Shown here: piece by piece, positions 50,645-58,069 of the stretch
Layout of the letters: every line of letters begins with the position of its first letter
How positions within the stretch are numbered: position 1 is the stretch's first letter
NCBI GenBank assembly: GCA_040755755.1
Contig: JBFLZW010000054.1
Span: 1 to 64,000, forward strand
Direction of reading: 5' to 3'
Source of the DNA: a bacterium
GTDB lineage: Bacteria > SZUA-182 > DTGQ01
Length of the DNA stretch: 64,000 bases
Program-made: the position numbers and the translations under genes
The notes under the pieces: model-generated
Database searches by the model: none
What the model saw: only the letters and a program-made list of their open reading frames with translations
What the model was told of the DNA's origin: nothing

Positions 50645-50686
50645 CTTACCAAGCTGCCAGGAAACAATGATGAGGAGCAATTGACC

Positions 50687-53600
50687 ATGTTGATCACGAA
50701 TCTGCAAGAGAGGTTGAGAGTGAGAGGGAATAAGCCGCCTTTATCAGAGTCTGGTTGTGCTCATGGGTTTTGCCGGAGTGCTTTATGGAGTTCAGGTATT
50801 TTCACGCTGATCTTAAGCCTTTGGCTGATAATGCTTTTTTCTTCCTCTGCCTGGGCCATTCGGGCCATAGCGGGAGATGGACAGATTCAGATATCCTGGA
50901 TTTCTCCCACCAAAAACGTGGATGGGACTCCTCTTCTGGACCTGGCCGGATATGATATCTACCGGGGAACCACGCGGGAAGAACAGAAAGAGAAAATAAA
51001 CAGGGAGCTTATCTCTGAATGCTCGTATATCGACAGCGGGCTCAAAAACGGCCAGACATACTATTATGTCGTCAGAGCGGTGGATTTCAGCGGTAATCCG
51101 AGCGCTCCATCCGAATATGTCTTTGCCACTCCCACCATCCTTCCCCCGCCAGGATTTGCCGCCATCGGCGATGACAACCGGGTCAAGCTGTTCTGGGAGG
51201 AAAGCGCGAATCGCTCGATCCGGGGATACCATCTGTACCGGACCGGCAGGCAGGGACAGGAATATCGAAAAATCACCGAGGTGCCCATCGAATGCACCTA
51301 TTTTGAAGACCATGAGGTAAAAAATGGTCTTACCTATTACTATACTATTACCTCCGTCAGCGAGGATGGACTGGAAAGCCCCCAGTCCGAGGAAAAGGAG
51401 GCGACTCCCAGTGCCAATCCGGTCGAGCCTTCCGATTTGAAAGCTGCCTATGTGCTGGGCAAGGTTAAACTGGAATGGCCGGCAAGCACTGACCCTCAAC
51501 TTGCAGGCTATCACGTTTACCGGCGAAACTCCATTGAAGAAAAGCAATTTCAAAAACTCACCGAAAAATTGCTTGTCGCTACCTCCTACCTGGACGAAAC
51601 CGCTGAAGAAAATAAACGATACCTCTATTCGGTGGTCAGCGTGAACAAGCAGGGAAAAGAGAGCAAGTTCCCGCTGGAGGTCCACTGCTATACGCAGAGC
51701 CTGTACATTGCCTCCATCACCGAAGATACGGAAGGGAAAGCCCGGAAGGCCGGTGATATAGTCACGCTCGTTATGCGGGGTGAGCCTGGCTGCCATGCCT
51801 CTTTTACTATCGAAGGCCTGACCGAGAATCAGGCCATGAAAGAGACCAGCCCCGGTGTATACCATCGGGAATTCATCATACCCAAGGGTGCCAATTTGAG
51901 CAATGCGCCGGTTTGGGGATGCCTTGCCGATACCCGGGACAACAGGAGCATGAAAAAGGCTGCGGGCACAATTTCCATTAAAAACGATCCGCCGCCGCCG
52001 GTCCAGGCTGTCACCGGCAAGATCAATGCTTACGGTCAGCCTGAAATATCCTGGACACCACCCCCTCCGGAGAGTTTCTCGGCGGTGGAAGTTATCCGCT
52101 CGCCTTCGGCCATTGATCCGGACTTCCCGCCGCCATCGGCTGATATTCTCGTCAAGAAAGAGCTTTCCACCTATACCGATGAAAAGGCTGATGCCGGTGC
52201 GCTTTACTATTACGTAGTCCGGACCGTGGATGAGGCCGGGAACCGGTCGAAGATTTCCGAGGCAGTGCCGATTGATCTGTCGCAGCACGCTTCGTCTCCG
52301 GCCATTTATTCCGTTATCGACGATACCCTGGGAGTTCCGGTTAAAACAGGCCGGATCATCAAAGTAACCGTGGAAGGGGACCGGGGATGCGAAGCCTCCT
52401 TTTCCATAGAGGGAGTGGTTCAGTGGAGTCCTCTGGAAGAGCTGCGTCCGGGAATCTATCAGGGTGAATACGAAGTCAAGGCGACGGATGAAGCAAAGGA
52501 GGCAGTCCTGGTGGCCAGATTGGTTGACCAGGCTAAAAGAGAAAAGCTTGGCAAGGGTGAAAAGCCCCTGCGGATCAACGTCCAGGCGGATGACCGGGAG
52601 CCGCCCGCTATTGCCAGAGTCGAGCATAATGGCACCCGGGTAGCCGGAATTTCGGGAAAGCTGGTGGCCGGAGACCTGCTCTGCGTTACCCTTTCCGGGG
52701 AGCCTGGGGGAATCGCCTTTTTCAGCCTCGGCCCCGAAGGGAAGAAGGTCTCAATGGAGGAATCCCGGTTCACTCAGGGAGAATATCAGGGCACCTATGC
52801 CATTCAGCCGGGAGATGATGCAGAGGAAATCACGGTCTGGGGGCATTTGTCCGATCCGGCTGGCAATATAACCAGCAAGAGCAGCGAAAATCGCCTGACG
52901 ATCGACACCCGGGCCATCATTACCGTGAAACCGGAAAAGGGTGATGATTCGCTGCATGCCGATGAAAAATCTCAAAAAGAGATCACCATAGAGGTCAAGG
53001 ATGTCAATGAAAAGCCCTTAAGCAACCATCATATTGCCTTGACCCTGTCCACAACCGATGAATATACGGATGTTGTTGGCGGAGGTGACTTTGGCCAGAA
53101 AATCGACAATGGGAAACTGGCCATTGACTTCGAGGATGTCACCGACAGTTTCGGGCGGATCAAGGCCAAATATACAGCCGGTAATGCTGCCAAAACAGCC
53201 CTGATTATCGCCAAAGACCTGGATACCGGCCATGCTGGAGCAGGCTATATAACCACCTATATTGAAAGCAGCCTGGACCTTTGGCTGGTACAGCCGATGC
53301 AGCAAAGCAGAGCCCTGGCAGAAGCCGAAGATGGAGATGCAGTCAGTATGATCCTGACGGCAGACCCGGAAAACATCACGGCAGATGGCCGCAGCCGGTC
53401 GAGGATCACCGTCCGGCTGCTGGATAAATACGGGAAACCGGCTGCCAGGAAATACCGGGTTTCATTCTCTCAGGTGTTTCCAGATAAGCCTGAGGGGAGG
53501 CTGAGTCCCCAGACAATCGAAACTCATGCAGGAAGCGGGTATGTCTATTATCAGGCAGGAAAAAATTACGGTCCGGTAACCATACAAGCGGTAGCCACGC

Positions 53601-54280
53601 GGGTGGAAAACCCTGAGAGTGCTCCTCCAGTCGCCCCGGTAGAAGTCAGCATCTACCAAATGAGCGATGCCCCGGCCAGGCTTATTATGGAGACTGATCC
53701 GGAGAAGAAGAACACTCTTGAAACGGACATCGGAGATTCTGTCAATATCAAGCTCACCGTTACCGATATCAATAAAAACCCCAATCAGGATGCTGTTATC
53801 CAGCTCTGGTTACAGGATGAGCGAGGGAATATTTCCCGAAATGGCAGGCTGTCAGCATCTGCCCTGGAAACCGATAAAAATGGCGGGGCCTCCTGCACCT
53901 ACTGGGCAGGTCAAACTCCTGGCCTTGTGCGAATCATGGCCAGATATACTTCTGAGATACCGAGGAAGGAGAAGGAGCTTCTTCGCGCCCGCGGGAGCCT
54001 CTTTGTTCCGCTCTGGAAGCAGGAAGAAGACAGCATCCTCGATAGCCATCGATGGATGGACATGGTCAGGGATGTTCAGGGGACTATCAAGGAATGGTTC
54101 AAAGCCGAGGGTGACGAGGTCCATAAAGGAGAGCCGCTGGCCCTCATCGAAATCGAACGGCACGGCGAAATCGTGCTCAGGGCTCCGGGTGATGGAAGAC
54201 TGATCGATATCAAAGTACTGCGGGGAGAAGATATCCTGGTCGGCCAGACAGTTGGATTTATGGAACTTGAGGAGAAGTAA
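50687..54280 (+). CDS. Exported fibronectin type III/Ig-like scaffold with degenerate lipoyl-like C-terminus
   Basis: A protein of 1197 residues from the ATG at 50687 (GAGGAG 9 bases before; an in-frame TTG is two codons upstream). A hydrophobic export segment lies near residues 37-57 after an unusually long, basic N-region. Three FN3-like domains follow to about 335 (GLKNGQTYYYVVRAVD, VKNGLTYYYTITSVS, ENKRYLYSVVSVN), then Ig-like segments sharing GEPGCHASFTIEG and GDRGCEASFSIEG, a fourth FN3 near 440-530, and invasin/Big-1-like domains near 745-1110 (NITADGRSRSRITVRLLDKY). The last 72 residues resemble a biotinyl/lipoyl domain: GTIKEWFKAEGDEVHKGEPL and RAPGDGRLIDIKV, but the modified Lys position reads ERH. 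Probably a surface scaffold for the cytochromes; inference. Confidence 0.82.
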   Translation: MLITNLQERLRVRGNKPPLSESGCAHGFCRSALWSSGIFTLILSLWLIMLFSSSAWAIRAIAGDGQIQISWISPTKNVDGTPLLDLAGYDIYRGTTREEQKEKINRELISECSYIDSGLKNGQTYYYVVRAVDFSGNPSAPSEYVFATPTILPPPGFAAIGDDNRVKLFWEESANRSIRGYHLYRTGRQGQEYRKITEVPIECTYFEDHEVKNGLTYYYTITSVSEDGLESPQSEEKEATPSANPVEPSDLKAAYVLGKVKLEWPASTDPQLAGYHVYRRNSIEEKQFQKLTEKLLVATSYLDETAEENKRYLYSVVSVNKQGKESKFPLEVHCYTQSLYIASITEDTEGKARKAGDIVTLVMRGEPGCHASFTIEGLTENQAMKETSPGVYHREFIIPKGANLSNAPVWGCLADTRDNRSMKKAAGTISIKNDPPPPVQAVTGKINAYGQPEISWTPPPPESFSAVEVIRSPSAIDPDFPPPSADILVKKELSTYTDEKADAGALYYYVVRTVDEAGNRSKISEAVPIDLSQHASSPAIYSVIDDTLGVPVKTGRIIKVTVEGDRGCEASFSIEGVVQWSPLEELRPGIYQGEYEVKATDEAKEAVLVARLVDQAKREKLGKGEKPLRINVQADDREPPAIARVEHNGTRVAGISGKLVAGDLLCVTLSGEPGGIAFFSLGPEGKKVSMEESRFTQGEYQGTYAIQPGDDAEEITVWGHLSDPAGNITSKSSENRLTIDTRAIITVKPEKGDDSLHADEKSQKEITIEVKDVNEKPLSNHHIALTLSTTDEYTDVVGGGDFGQKIDNGKLAIDFEDVTDSFGRIKAKYTAGNAAKTALIIAKDLDTGHAGAGYITTYIESSLDLWLVQPMQQSRALAEAEDGDAVSMILTADPENITADGRSRSRITVRLLDKYGKPAARKYRVSFSQVFPDKPEGRLSPQTIETHAGSGYVYYQAGKNYGPVTIQAVATRVENPESAPPVAPVEVSIYQMSDAPARLIMETDPEKKNTLETDIGDSVNIKLTVTDINKNPNQDAVIQLWLQDERGNISRNGRLSASALETDKNGGASCTYWAGQTPGLVRIMARYTSEIPRKEKELLRARGSLFVPLWKQEEDSILDSHRWMDMVRDVQGTIKEWFKAEGDEVHKGEPLALIEIERHGEIVLRAPGDGRLIDIKVLRGEDILVGQTVGFMELEEK

Positions 54281-54475: not shown

Positions 54476-55000
54476 ATGAAAAAGATTATTATTAATACAT
54501 TGGTTCCATTGCTGATTATTTCCTGTTATATCTCTCCAGTTTCTGCTGTGGAGGTTGCTCCCCGTATTTCGGACAGGGAGATTGTGGAGAGGCTTTCCAG
54601 GCTTGAGGAGGGGCAGAAGGATCTGCGCTCAGAAATGATCGCTCGATTCGAATCGGTGGATAAACAGTTCGAATCGGTGGATAGACAGTTCGAATCGGTG
54701 GATAAGCGATTCGAATCGGTGGATAAGCGATTCGATGCAATGGATAAGCGATTCGATGCAATGGATAAGCGAATCGATGACCTGCGTGCAGAGATGAATA
54801 GTAAATTTGACCTCATCATCTGGATGATGGGGCTTTTTATTACTATTGCCCTCGCCATGTCAGGGTTTGTGATCAGGATGCAATGGCAGATGCAGAAGAA
54901 CCAGGCAAGTATGAAAACTTCTCTGGAAACCCAAAAAGATGAGATAGCCTTCCTGAAGAGCCTGATCGAAAAGCTTCTTCCTCCGAAAGGAGCCTTGTAA
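54476..55000 (+). CDS. Membrane protein with heptad-repeat coiled coil
   Basis: A 174-residue protein. A signal or anchor (about residues 5-22, NTLVPLLIISCYISPVSA) is followed by a coiled coil of exact seven-residue repeats: FESVDKQ, FESVDRQ, FESVDKR (twice) and FDAMDKR (twice), then RIDDLRAEMNSKFD. A membrane helix (LIIWMMGLFITIALAMSGFVI) lies near 113-133 and a second coiled segment ends the protein. Similar short repeat proteins occur widely in bacteria without known function. It follows the scaffold gene on the same strand after a strong palindrome and may or may not be part of that unit. Confidence 0.75.
   Translation: MKKIIINTLVPLLIISCYISPVSAVEVAPRISDREIVERLSRLEEGQKDLRSEMIARFESVDKQFESVDRQFESVDKRFESVDKRFDAMDKRFDAMDKRIDDLRAEMNSKFDLIIWMMGLFITIALAMSGFVIRMQWQMQKNQASMKTSLETQKDEIAFLKSLIEKLLPPKGAL
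54647..54772 (+). repeat. 21-bp tandem repeat (six units)
   Basis: Six uninterrupted 21-bp units: four of TTCGAATCGGTGGATAARCR type and two of TTCGATGCAATGGATAAGCG type, each encoding one coiled-coil heptad. Unit number changes would keep the reading frame and the heptad phase. Confidence 0.9.
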
Positions 55001-56346: not shown

Positions 56347-56451
56347 AAACCGCGGCAAACATCAGCCGTCTCTTCTATCGATATGCGAACGGCGAATCTT
56401 CGGGCTGATAGAGTCCTGATAATATCCTAACCTCATTGCGGCCAAAATATC

Positions 56452-56480
56452 TTGACAACGACCGCAAGCGTATGGTAGAT
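56452..56480 (+). promoter_or_regulatory. Promoter of tRNA-Leu
   Basis: TTGACA at 56452-56457 and GTAGAT at 56475-56480, 17 bp apart, end 32 bases before the tRNA. A CG-rich stretch typical of stable RNA discriminators is not evident. Confidence 0.5.
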
Positions 56481-56512
56481 ATTTAACGAGACTGAAATTA
56501 TCGAATGTCATT

Positions 56513-56598
56513 GCCGGAGTGGTGGAATTGGCATACGCACGGGACTCAAAATCCCGCGGGCCTCAGCGCCCATGAGGGTTCGACCCCCTCCTCCGGCA
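56513..56598 (+). tRNA. tRNA-Leu (anticodon CAA)
   Basis: An 86-nt class II tRNA. Acceptor stem GCCGGAG/CTCCGGC with discriminator A, anticodon arm CGGGA-CTCAAAA-TCCCG giving anticodon CAA (reads UUG), a long variable arm (GGGCCTCAGCGCCC), and T arm GAGGG-TTCGACC-CCCTC. CCA is not encoded. Confidence 0.96.
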
Positions 56599-56673
56599 TG
56601 AATCCCTGCCCTTATCCCTTTAGATATAGTGCTTTAGGACGGCTTACCCCTCATAGGGGGACATATTTTTATC

Positions 56674-56703
56674 TTGACAACGGGCTCGAGGTTGAGCTAG
56701 TAT
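56674..56703 (+). promoter_or_regulatory. Promoter upstream of the small RNA candidate and IHF/HU gene
   Basis: TTGACA at 56674-56679 and TAGTAT at 56698-56703 with 18-bp spacing. The next downstream elements are a terminator at 56884 and the IHF/HU-like gene at 57062. Confidence 0.55.
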
Positions 56704-56709
56704 TTTAGT

Positions 56710-56911
56710 AATAAATAACCAGGTGTTTGATGTGTTTCTGAGAAAGTAGTCAATATTTCCAGAGAGTTTGCAGTCAGGTATTTTAACTTGTTGAAAGGCT
56801 CGCTGCTCCTTAAAATCCAAGAGATATATGAACTGAACCTCTATAATTCTTAAACCCGGTGGTCGATTGTGGCCAAGAGGGAGAACGACCGTGCAGGTCG
56901 TTTTTATTTTT
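56710..56911 (+). ncRNA. Candidate small RNA or leader, about 200 nt
   Basis: No reading frame lies between the promoter at 56674 and the intrinsic terminator at 56884-56911, so a transcript of about 200 nt is predicted. Locally it can form hairpins such as GGTCGATTGTGGCC near 56860. It could be a free-standing small RNA or an attenuated leader of the IHF/HU gene. The size would suit 6S RNA, but I could not confirm the expected long rod-like fold. Confidence 0.35.
56884..56911 (+). terminator. Rho-independent terminator upstream of the IHF/HU gene
   Basis: AACGACC (56884-56890) pairs with GGTCGTT (56896-56902) around a 5-base loop and is followed by TTTATTTTT. It precedes the IHF/HU-like start codon by 150 bases. 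Confidence 0.8.
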
Positions 56912-57061
56912 ACTATCTTACTGTAACCCTTCCCAGTCTCAGAAGTGTAGGTACTCTCCTTTGCTGGAAGATCATCTGAAGATGTTTCAAGCGAGAGTTT
57001 TTAATAAAATAAGACAATAAGTTAATGGTCCTGAACATTACCAATTACGCAGGAGTTCTCT

Positions 57062-57355
57062 ATGACTAAAGAAGAAATTATTAGAGCCATCTGGGATCAA
57101 TTTCCCAATATTACGGTTAATGAGGCACGACGGATATATGAGACTACCATTAACCTCCTGAAGGAAACCCTGGTGAAGGGCGAATCTATCGAGATCAGAG
57201 GTTTTGGTAAGTTTACTGTCCGGGAGAAAAACAAGAGAATGGGCAGAAATCCGAGAACTGGTGAAGAAGCGGTAATTGTTGAGCGAAAGGTGGTCACGTT
57301 TAAACCATCGAAGATATTCCGGGGTATGGTCTGCGATAATAACGGAGATGAGTAA
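57062..57355 (+). CDS. IHF/HU-family nucleoid DNA-binding protein
   Basis: A 97-residue histone-like protein that bends DNA as a dimer. Family landmarks are the helical N-terminus (TKEEIIRAIWDQFPNITVNEA), EIRGFGKFTVREKNKR, and the beta-arm RMGRNPRTGEEAVIVERKV with the intercalating Pro (NPRTGE), ending TFKPSKIFR. The sequence looks slightly closer to IHF-alpha than to HU, but I would not assign himA firmly. A GGAG site is 8 bases upstream. It may be read from the promoter at 56674 through the intervening terminator or from a closer unseen promoter. Confidence 0.93.
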   Translation: MTKEEIIRAIWDQFPNITVNEARRIYETTINLLKETLVKGESIEIRGFGKFTVREKNKRMGRNPRTGEEAVIVERKVVTFKPSKIFRGMVCDNNGDE

Positions 57356-57571: not shown

Positions 57572-58069
57572 TCAAGGGTGATCGGACTTTTCCCTGCCTG
57601 GTTGCGGAGGCGAAGGGAAAGAGTATCTGGTTTTTACTTCCCCCTGACCCTGGAGCAGTTTTACATCAAGGTAGTCGCACAGGTTCCTGTCCTGGGTTCT
57701 ATCCCGTAAAATAAAACTGAAATTGCGATTATTCCTGGTGCTTTCAACGGTAATCTTGCCAAATCCCTCCGGATAGACGTCGAATATCTCCCGATAGGAA
57801 AATTCATTGATCTCAATCATACATTTTTTTCTGATCGACAATCCCGATTCACACGTGAGATAAACCCGTAAGATGGTAATAAGGCGTTGATCAGTAAGGG
57901 CAACCATACCGCGTGAAAAACCGTCGCTGTCTGAAGCCTCATATATCTTTTCAATAACTTCGCCGTCCCACAGGATGTCAGCCAGCCAGGTGATCTCCTC
58001 CCGTCTGGCGAAATGCTCTCCCCTTTTCAGTTGACTGATCTGTGTCTGAACTGCCTCTAATTTGTTCAT
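57572..58069 (-). CDS. PH-like domain protein, function unknown
   Basis: A 165-residue soluble protein without signal peptide. The middle resembles bacterial PH-like (YokE/bPH) domains: ASDSDGFSRGMVALTDQRLITI, followed by IEINEFSYREIFDV and FGKITVESTRNNRNFSFILRD. Such domains occur in stress or phospho-signalling proteins but no specific role is known. The start has no strong ribosome site. The gene stands alone between the IHF/HU gene (convergent) and the formate dehydrogenase gene upstream on the same strand (about 167 bp away). Moderate confidence that it is real, low for the fold. Confidence 0.6.
   Translation of the reverse strand: MNKLEAVQTQISQLKRGEHFARREEITWLADILWDGEVIEKIYEASDSDGFSRGMVALTDQRLITILRVYLTCESGLSIRKKCMIEINEFSYREIFDVYPEGFGKITVESTRNNRNFSFILRDRTQDRNLCDYLDVKLLQGQGEVKTRYSFPSPPQPGREKSDHP

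Follow-up and report, generated by a model that had tools for sequence, protein, structure and literature searches.

A probable genus-restricted terminated RNA between a tRNA-Leu gene and an IHF/HU-family gene

The window analysed here, a stretch of 64 000 nucleotides, comprises bases 1-64000 of contig C54 in a draft genome (G000) of 5.26 Mb that is 97.6% complete. Comparisons were made within a sample of nine genomes of its class, in which the genus is represented by the source genome and one sister species (G001). The locus of interest is flanked on the left by a tRNA-Leu gene with anticodon CAA (56512-56599, plus strand; identified by ARAGORN and scoring 50.2 bits with Rfam RF00005), which occupies the same place in the sister species, and on the right by a gene encoding a 97-residue protein of the IHF/HU family (57062-57355, plus strand; Pfam PF00216, 93.8 bits). 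The top NCBIfam models for this protein are those of IHF alpha, with scores below their cut-offs, and it has five matches within its own genome. The order tRNA-Leu(CAA), promoter, about 200 nt, terminator, about 150 nt and IHF/HU gene is common to both species, the counterpart consisting of tRNA-Leu, TTGACA-17-TACTAT, about 210 nt, the terminator and the IHF gene. On the right flank, both species carry an open reading frame starting with the identical residues MNKLEAVQTQIS and a piece of a formate dehydrogenase gene, as judged by eye. A 165-residue reading frame on the minus strand (57572-58069), with no Pfam or NCBIfam match, also has a counterpart at the same place. Further to the left, a 1199-residue reading frame (50681-54280, listed with a TTG start) has a long repetitive part ahead of its C-terminal 65 residues, which match lipoyl-type domains in models of dehydrogenase E2 (E = 8.3e-7, a score short of the cut-off), and a 174-residue frame (54476-55000) contains tandem FESVDK/FDAMDK heptads, seen by eye, that likely form a coiled coil preceding a membrane segment.

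An earlier note, made from the letters of the window alone, had placed a noncoding stretch of about 200 nt at 56674-56911, between a good promoter and a good intrinsic terminator. These bounds proved right, both signals being confirmed about 200 bases apart. The promoter (56664-56703, plus strand) consists of an AT-rich stretch, TATTTTTATC, a -35 element TTGACA at 56674 and a -10 element TAGTAT ending at 56703; this TTGACA-18-TAGTAT arrangement matches the consensus at 10 of 12 positions. A bare consensus match is a weak case for a promoter at this site. Between 55500 and 58000 there is one promoter-like site, compared with 2.7 (s.d. 1.4) in shuffled sequences; between 46000 and 64000 there are 22, compared with 14.0 (s.d. 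3.8), and five of these 22 score 10/12. The score found in the 121 nt from 56600 to 56720 was equalled by 14 of 300 shuffles, and that of the counterpart in the sister species by 54 of 300. The promoter is nonetheless credible because its hexamers are conserved: TATTTTTATCTTGACAA is identical at 17 of 17 positions and the -10 elements read TAGTAT and TACTAT, whereas most of the spacer differs. Judging from the position of the -10 element, transcription would start near 56710.

The terminator (56881-56911, plus strand) is formed by a 10-bp stem, a GTGCA loop and a T5-A-T5 tail; the stem itself (56881-56905) has ten pairs, four of them G-C, and is followed by ATTTTT. Within the 18 kb around it there are 27 terminator-like sites, compared with 19.2 (s.d. 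5.0) in shuffled sequences, and its stem is the longest among them. The predicted folding energy of -13.4 kcal/mol (z = -4.90) was matched by none of 200 shuffles, and the same holds for the terminator of the sister species (-12.5, z = -5.05, 0/200). The two are identical at 28 of 31 positions (90%) and retain all ten pairs, one of them through a change from G-U to A-U.

Identity to the sister species is distributed unevenly along the locus. The tRNA genes agree at 87 of 88 positions and the spacer between tRNA and promoter at 36 of 70 (51%). The 5' part of the inferred transcript (56710-56828, plus strand) is poorly conserved and differs in length between the species; from 56710 to 56815 only 50 of 105 aligned bases are identical (48%), with 18 gap columns, and from 56816 to 56880 the figure is 43 of 59. 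Over 56829-56911, with a gap treatment different from that of the region-by-region identities, there are 67 identical positions, seven transitions, three transversions and six gap columns, or 87% identity (67/77 aligned). After the terminator, 117 of 147 aligned bases are identical (31 of 46 in 56912-56957 alone); in the IHF gene, 24 of 35 fourfold sites are identical. The pattern, in which conservation appears to favour the promoter hexamers, the final 83 bases and a 31-bp block ahead of the IHF gene while the rest drifts, is suggestive, not strong, as it is drawn from two genomes only.

The conserved 3' module (56829-56880, plus strand) begins with about 30 conserved nucleotides that are predicted to be unpaired in a two-sequence consensus of the window and the sister species, followed by a hairpin, GGUCG/UGGCC, at 56861-56874. 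All five pairs of this hairpin stand in both species, two of them through one-sided changes; taken together, the module hairpin and the terminator keep all 15 pairs, three by one-sided changes, and no pair in the two hairpins has changed on both sides. A third helix proposed in the module, AAGAG/UUCUU, is paired in only 80% of cells. At 56829-56838, comparison by eye shows a 5-nt tandem duplication of TGAAC in the window relative to the sister species. In single-sequence folding, the whole RNA folds only slightly better than shuffles, by about two standard deviations (z = -1.96 in the window and -1.93 in the sister species, 8/200 shuffles as good in each).

The range of the sequence is narrow. 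Of 60 genomes searched with a 462-bp region, two gave matches, and these are the two of the genus; the other seven genomes of the class contain no match to this region or to the 3' module, and a core model of the module (R1) searched against all nine recovered only the two sequences from which it was built. The earlier note had held that a lack of conservation would tell against the candidate; conservation is seen in the single further genome available for the genus, and none was found in the other seven genomes of the class. An exact search of the genome collection with a 20-mer from the core gave 15 matches, about seven being expected by chance according to our own arithmetic and the record of the source genome possibly lying outside the collection; 14 were rejected by eye as chance matches, and the contig of the sister species was the only one with a terminator after the match. 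Neither blastn nor inspection by eye found a similar RNA downstream of tRNA-Leu(CAA) in four other genomes of the class (G002, G004, G006 and G007).

The covariance-model search that the earlier note had advised, for 6S, SRP and other RNAs, gave no assignment: no family of Rfam 15 passes its gathering cut-off in the interval, the neighbouring tRNA alone doing so, and the best other scores in 56400-57100 fall far below their cut-offs (for example, isrD with 18.1 of 37 bits). For 6S RNA (RF00013), no match was obtained in the interval either at the gathering cut-off or at E values up to 10; the true 6S gene of this genome lies elsewhere (G000:C45:50541-50724, minus strand, 99.3 bits). SRP RNA, RNase P, tmRNA, T-box and riboswitch models likewise gave no score over the gathering cut-off in the interval. 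With respect to coding potential, the tRNA-IHF intergenic region has six reading frames of at least 12 residues that overlap 56710-56911 in the window, and nine that overlap the corresponding stretch in the sister species. A blastp comparison of the two sets at E below 1e-4 aligned three short pieces of 6 to 15 residues, two of which fall on the conserved terminator sequence, each in a different frame; no frame is shared from end to end. The idea of an encoded peptide was rejected on this comparison and on the 5-nt duplication.

The best-conserved element ahead of the IHF/HU gene is a 31-bp block (56958-56988, plus strand) located 74-104 bp before the start codon, which is identical at 30 of 31 positions in the sister species and contains a GAAGAT-5-GAAGAT direct repeat. 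A 23-mer from it, GGAAGATCATCTGAAGATGTTTC, has a single copy in either genome of the genus and none in the seven other genomes of the class, with up to three mismatches allowed. This block could be the promoter or operator of the IHF gene itself, or a leader element or hairpin; drawn as a hairpin it gives z scores of -1.18 (window) and -1.63 (sister species). An 11-bp spacing of direct repeats, as seen here, is known for response-regulator sites. A search for GAAGAT-5-GAAGATG with at most one mismatch gave 36 matches in the source genome, compared with three for a reversed control, and 15 compared with one in the sister species, with two exact matches in each genome; the excess over the control may reflect coding sequence.

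A consensus scan, which is blind to activator-dependent and other kinds of promoter, revealed no good σ70-like promoter between the terminator and the IHF gene in either species: the best match was 8/12 in each, at places that do not correspond, and was equalled by 231 of 300 and 271 of 300 shuffles. We surveyed 14 IHF/HU genes from among the many more that exist, namely that of the window, its ortholog in the sister species, the top-scoring match from every genome of G002-G008, and a further five genes that are paralogs. All 12 genes other than the orthologous pair have an upstream candidate of at least 9/12, with +1 at -34 to -273, in a count made with no shuffle control. None of the 12 has a 10-bp terminator between candidate promoter and gene, and the sole terminator-like site, of six pairs in G008, lies at -248, upstream of its candidates. 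The 420-nt limit of the survey just missed the promoter of the sister species, for which a separate scan shows TTGACA-17-TACTAT. The gene in G004 is preceded by TTGACA-17-TAGTAT, much like the promoter in the window.

The promoter hexamers, the 3' part and the terminator are all conserved in the sister species, which speaks for a genuine terminated transcript, and we consider that the interval probably gives rise to a genus-restricted RNA of an ordinary kind. The best single explanation, which we put forward tentatively and at slightly less than even confidence, is a gene for a stand-alone small RNA, so far seen in this genus alone. It is supported by synteny and conservation in the one sister species, where its own promoter and terminator are both conserved; by the uneven identity, a pattern that an RNA functioning through its 3' end should show; by the retention of 15 pairs in the two 3' hairpins, together with the strong terminator; by the lack of an antiterminator; and by the position of the 31-bp block, where promoters of other IHF/HU genes in the class tend to lie. 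Against it we count the availability of only two sequences, in which neither hairpin shows a pair altered on both strands of its stem, the third helix paired in 80% of cells, the whole-RNA fold only about two standard deviations better than shuffles and the lack of a good σ70-like IHF promoter after the terminator. RNA polymerase would start near 56710 and stop near 56911, releasing an RNA in which the variable 5' part would matter little and the conserved last 83 bases would be the working part. The apparently unpaired tract TGAACYTCTATAATTCTTRAACCYGG would lie ahead of two hairpins, the small one and that of the terminator, and base-pair with other mRNAs, while the terminator hairpin and U tail would protect the transcript and might serve as the binding site of a chaperone. 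On this view, transcription of the IHF gene would begin at a separate promoter, at or close to the 31-bp block. The IHF start region, the sole target tried, gave no pairing with the RNA beyond that of shuffled sequences: of 500 shuffles, 420 and 392 did as well for the window, and 335 and 290 for the sister species. This is a weak test, made with a simple duplex program that allows long internal loops.

The earlier note had offered two outcomes, a small RNA if most transcripts stop at the terminator and an attenuator if termination is conditional; the terminated transcript that both share is supported by conservation. We favour the separate small RNA over the attenuated leader, which is possible but less probable, and the two are not exclusive. 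In the attenuator reading, expression of IHF/HU would depend on the promoter at 56674 and pass through a leader of about 350 nt; termination at 56911 would be the usual fate of transcripts, read-through would set the amount of nucleoid protein, and the terminated product may double as a small RNA. The scan results after the terminator fit this arrangement, as do the 12 other genes with their uninterrupted upstream candidates, the likeness of the G004 promoter, the promoter-terminator-gene order kept in the sister species and the conservation of the post-terminator DNA. However, the terminator looks strong and intact, and there is no conserved alternative helix to oppose it: the longest upstream complement of its 5' arm is five bases and differs between the species. 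An attenuator here could instead work through a protein or a ribosome. A helix from the 31-bp block masking the ribosome-binding site, proposed from the two-sequence consensus, was rejected on single-sequence folds of the post-terminator leaders (z = +0.70 and +0.91); for the full leader the z scores are -0.74 (window) and -2.10 (sister species). The missing IHF promoter may also be one of the kinds to which the scan is blind, and the best-conserved stretch before the gene sits just where its own promoter or operator is expected. A combined version seems unlikely to us: the terminated leader would be a regulatory RNA setting the level of the IHF-type protein, with a conditional stop at 56911, a released RNA with a role of its own and a 31-bp block that controls the mRNA made by read-through and to which the nucleoid protein itself perhaps binds.

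It is similarly improbable that the terminator simply ends the tRNA-Leu unit, with the `small RNA' being for the most part the trailer at the 3' end of the tRNA precursor and a second promoter lying inside it. The tRNA gene does lack a strong terminator of its own, a 5-bp hairpin at 56647 having no listed counterpart in the sister species; the first strong terminator after it is the one at 56881 in both species, and in G002, by eye, tRNA-Leu directly precedes a hairpin and T run. A mere trailer, however, needs neither a conserved internal promoter nor a 3' part conserved beyond the terminator stem. Least probable is a translated leader peptide, ending YNS-stop just before the hairpins, that couples translation to termination. 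Frames of 21 codons in the window (56788-56853) and 26 codons in the sister species (424-504) do end, by eye, at the same aligned stop (TAA/TGA) with YNS in common, but blastp leaves them unpaired at E values up to 10, the 5-nt tandem duplication in the window shifts the frame upstream, the listed start codons are TTG and no run of a single amino acid is present to sense a tRNA.

Intergenic trans-acting small RNAs with an intrinsic terminator are a well known kind of bacterial regulator, and the candidate resembles them in having its own promoter, a length of about 200 nt, a conserved 3' end and a terminator hairpin with a U tail, while differing from the known examples in matching nothing in Rfam release 15. 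If real, it would be an unnamed RNA adjoining a nucleoid-protein gene in a sparsely sampled class (nine genomes); as a stand-alone small RNA it would be an ordinary addition. With 6S RNA (RF00013) it shares a length near 200 nt, but it is unmatched by that model and the 6S gene of the genome is accounted for on contig C45. Transcription attenuators with an intrinsic terminator in the leader are another general kind. The locus shares with them a promoter, a terminator and a gene that all face the same way and lack a good intervening promoter, and differs in that no antiterminator was found and no known riboswitch or T-box matches. An IHF/HU attenuator would be the more surprising outcome, since a limited search of the open-access literature found none ahead of such a gene. 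In Salmonella, the small RNA RaiZ acts on hupA mRNA; it is reported to be cut from the 3' end of the raiA mRNA and to pair in trans with the hupA ribosome-binding site (PMC5391140). The candidate differs from RaiZ in lying upstream of the gene and in pairing with the IHF start no better than shuffled sequences. In both cases a small RNA is connected to a member of the HU/IHF superfamily of nucleoid proteins, and RaiZ-hupA is the nearest published example of a small RNA tied to a gene of the HU type seen in our limited search (PMC5391140).
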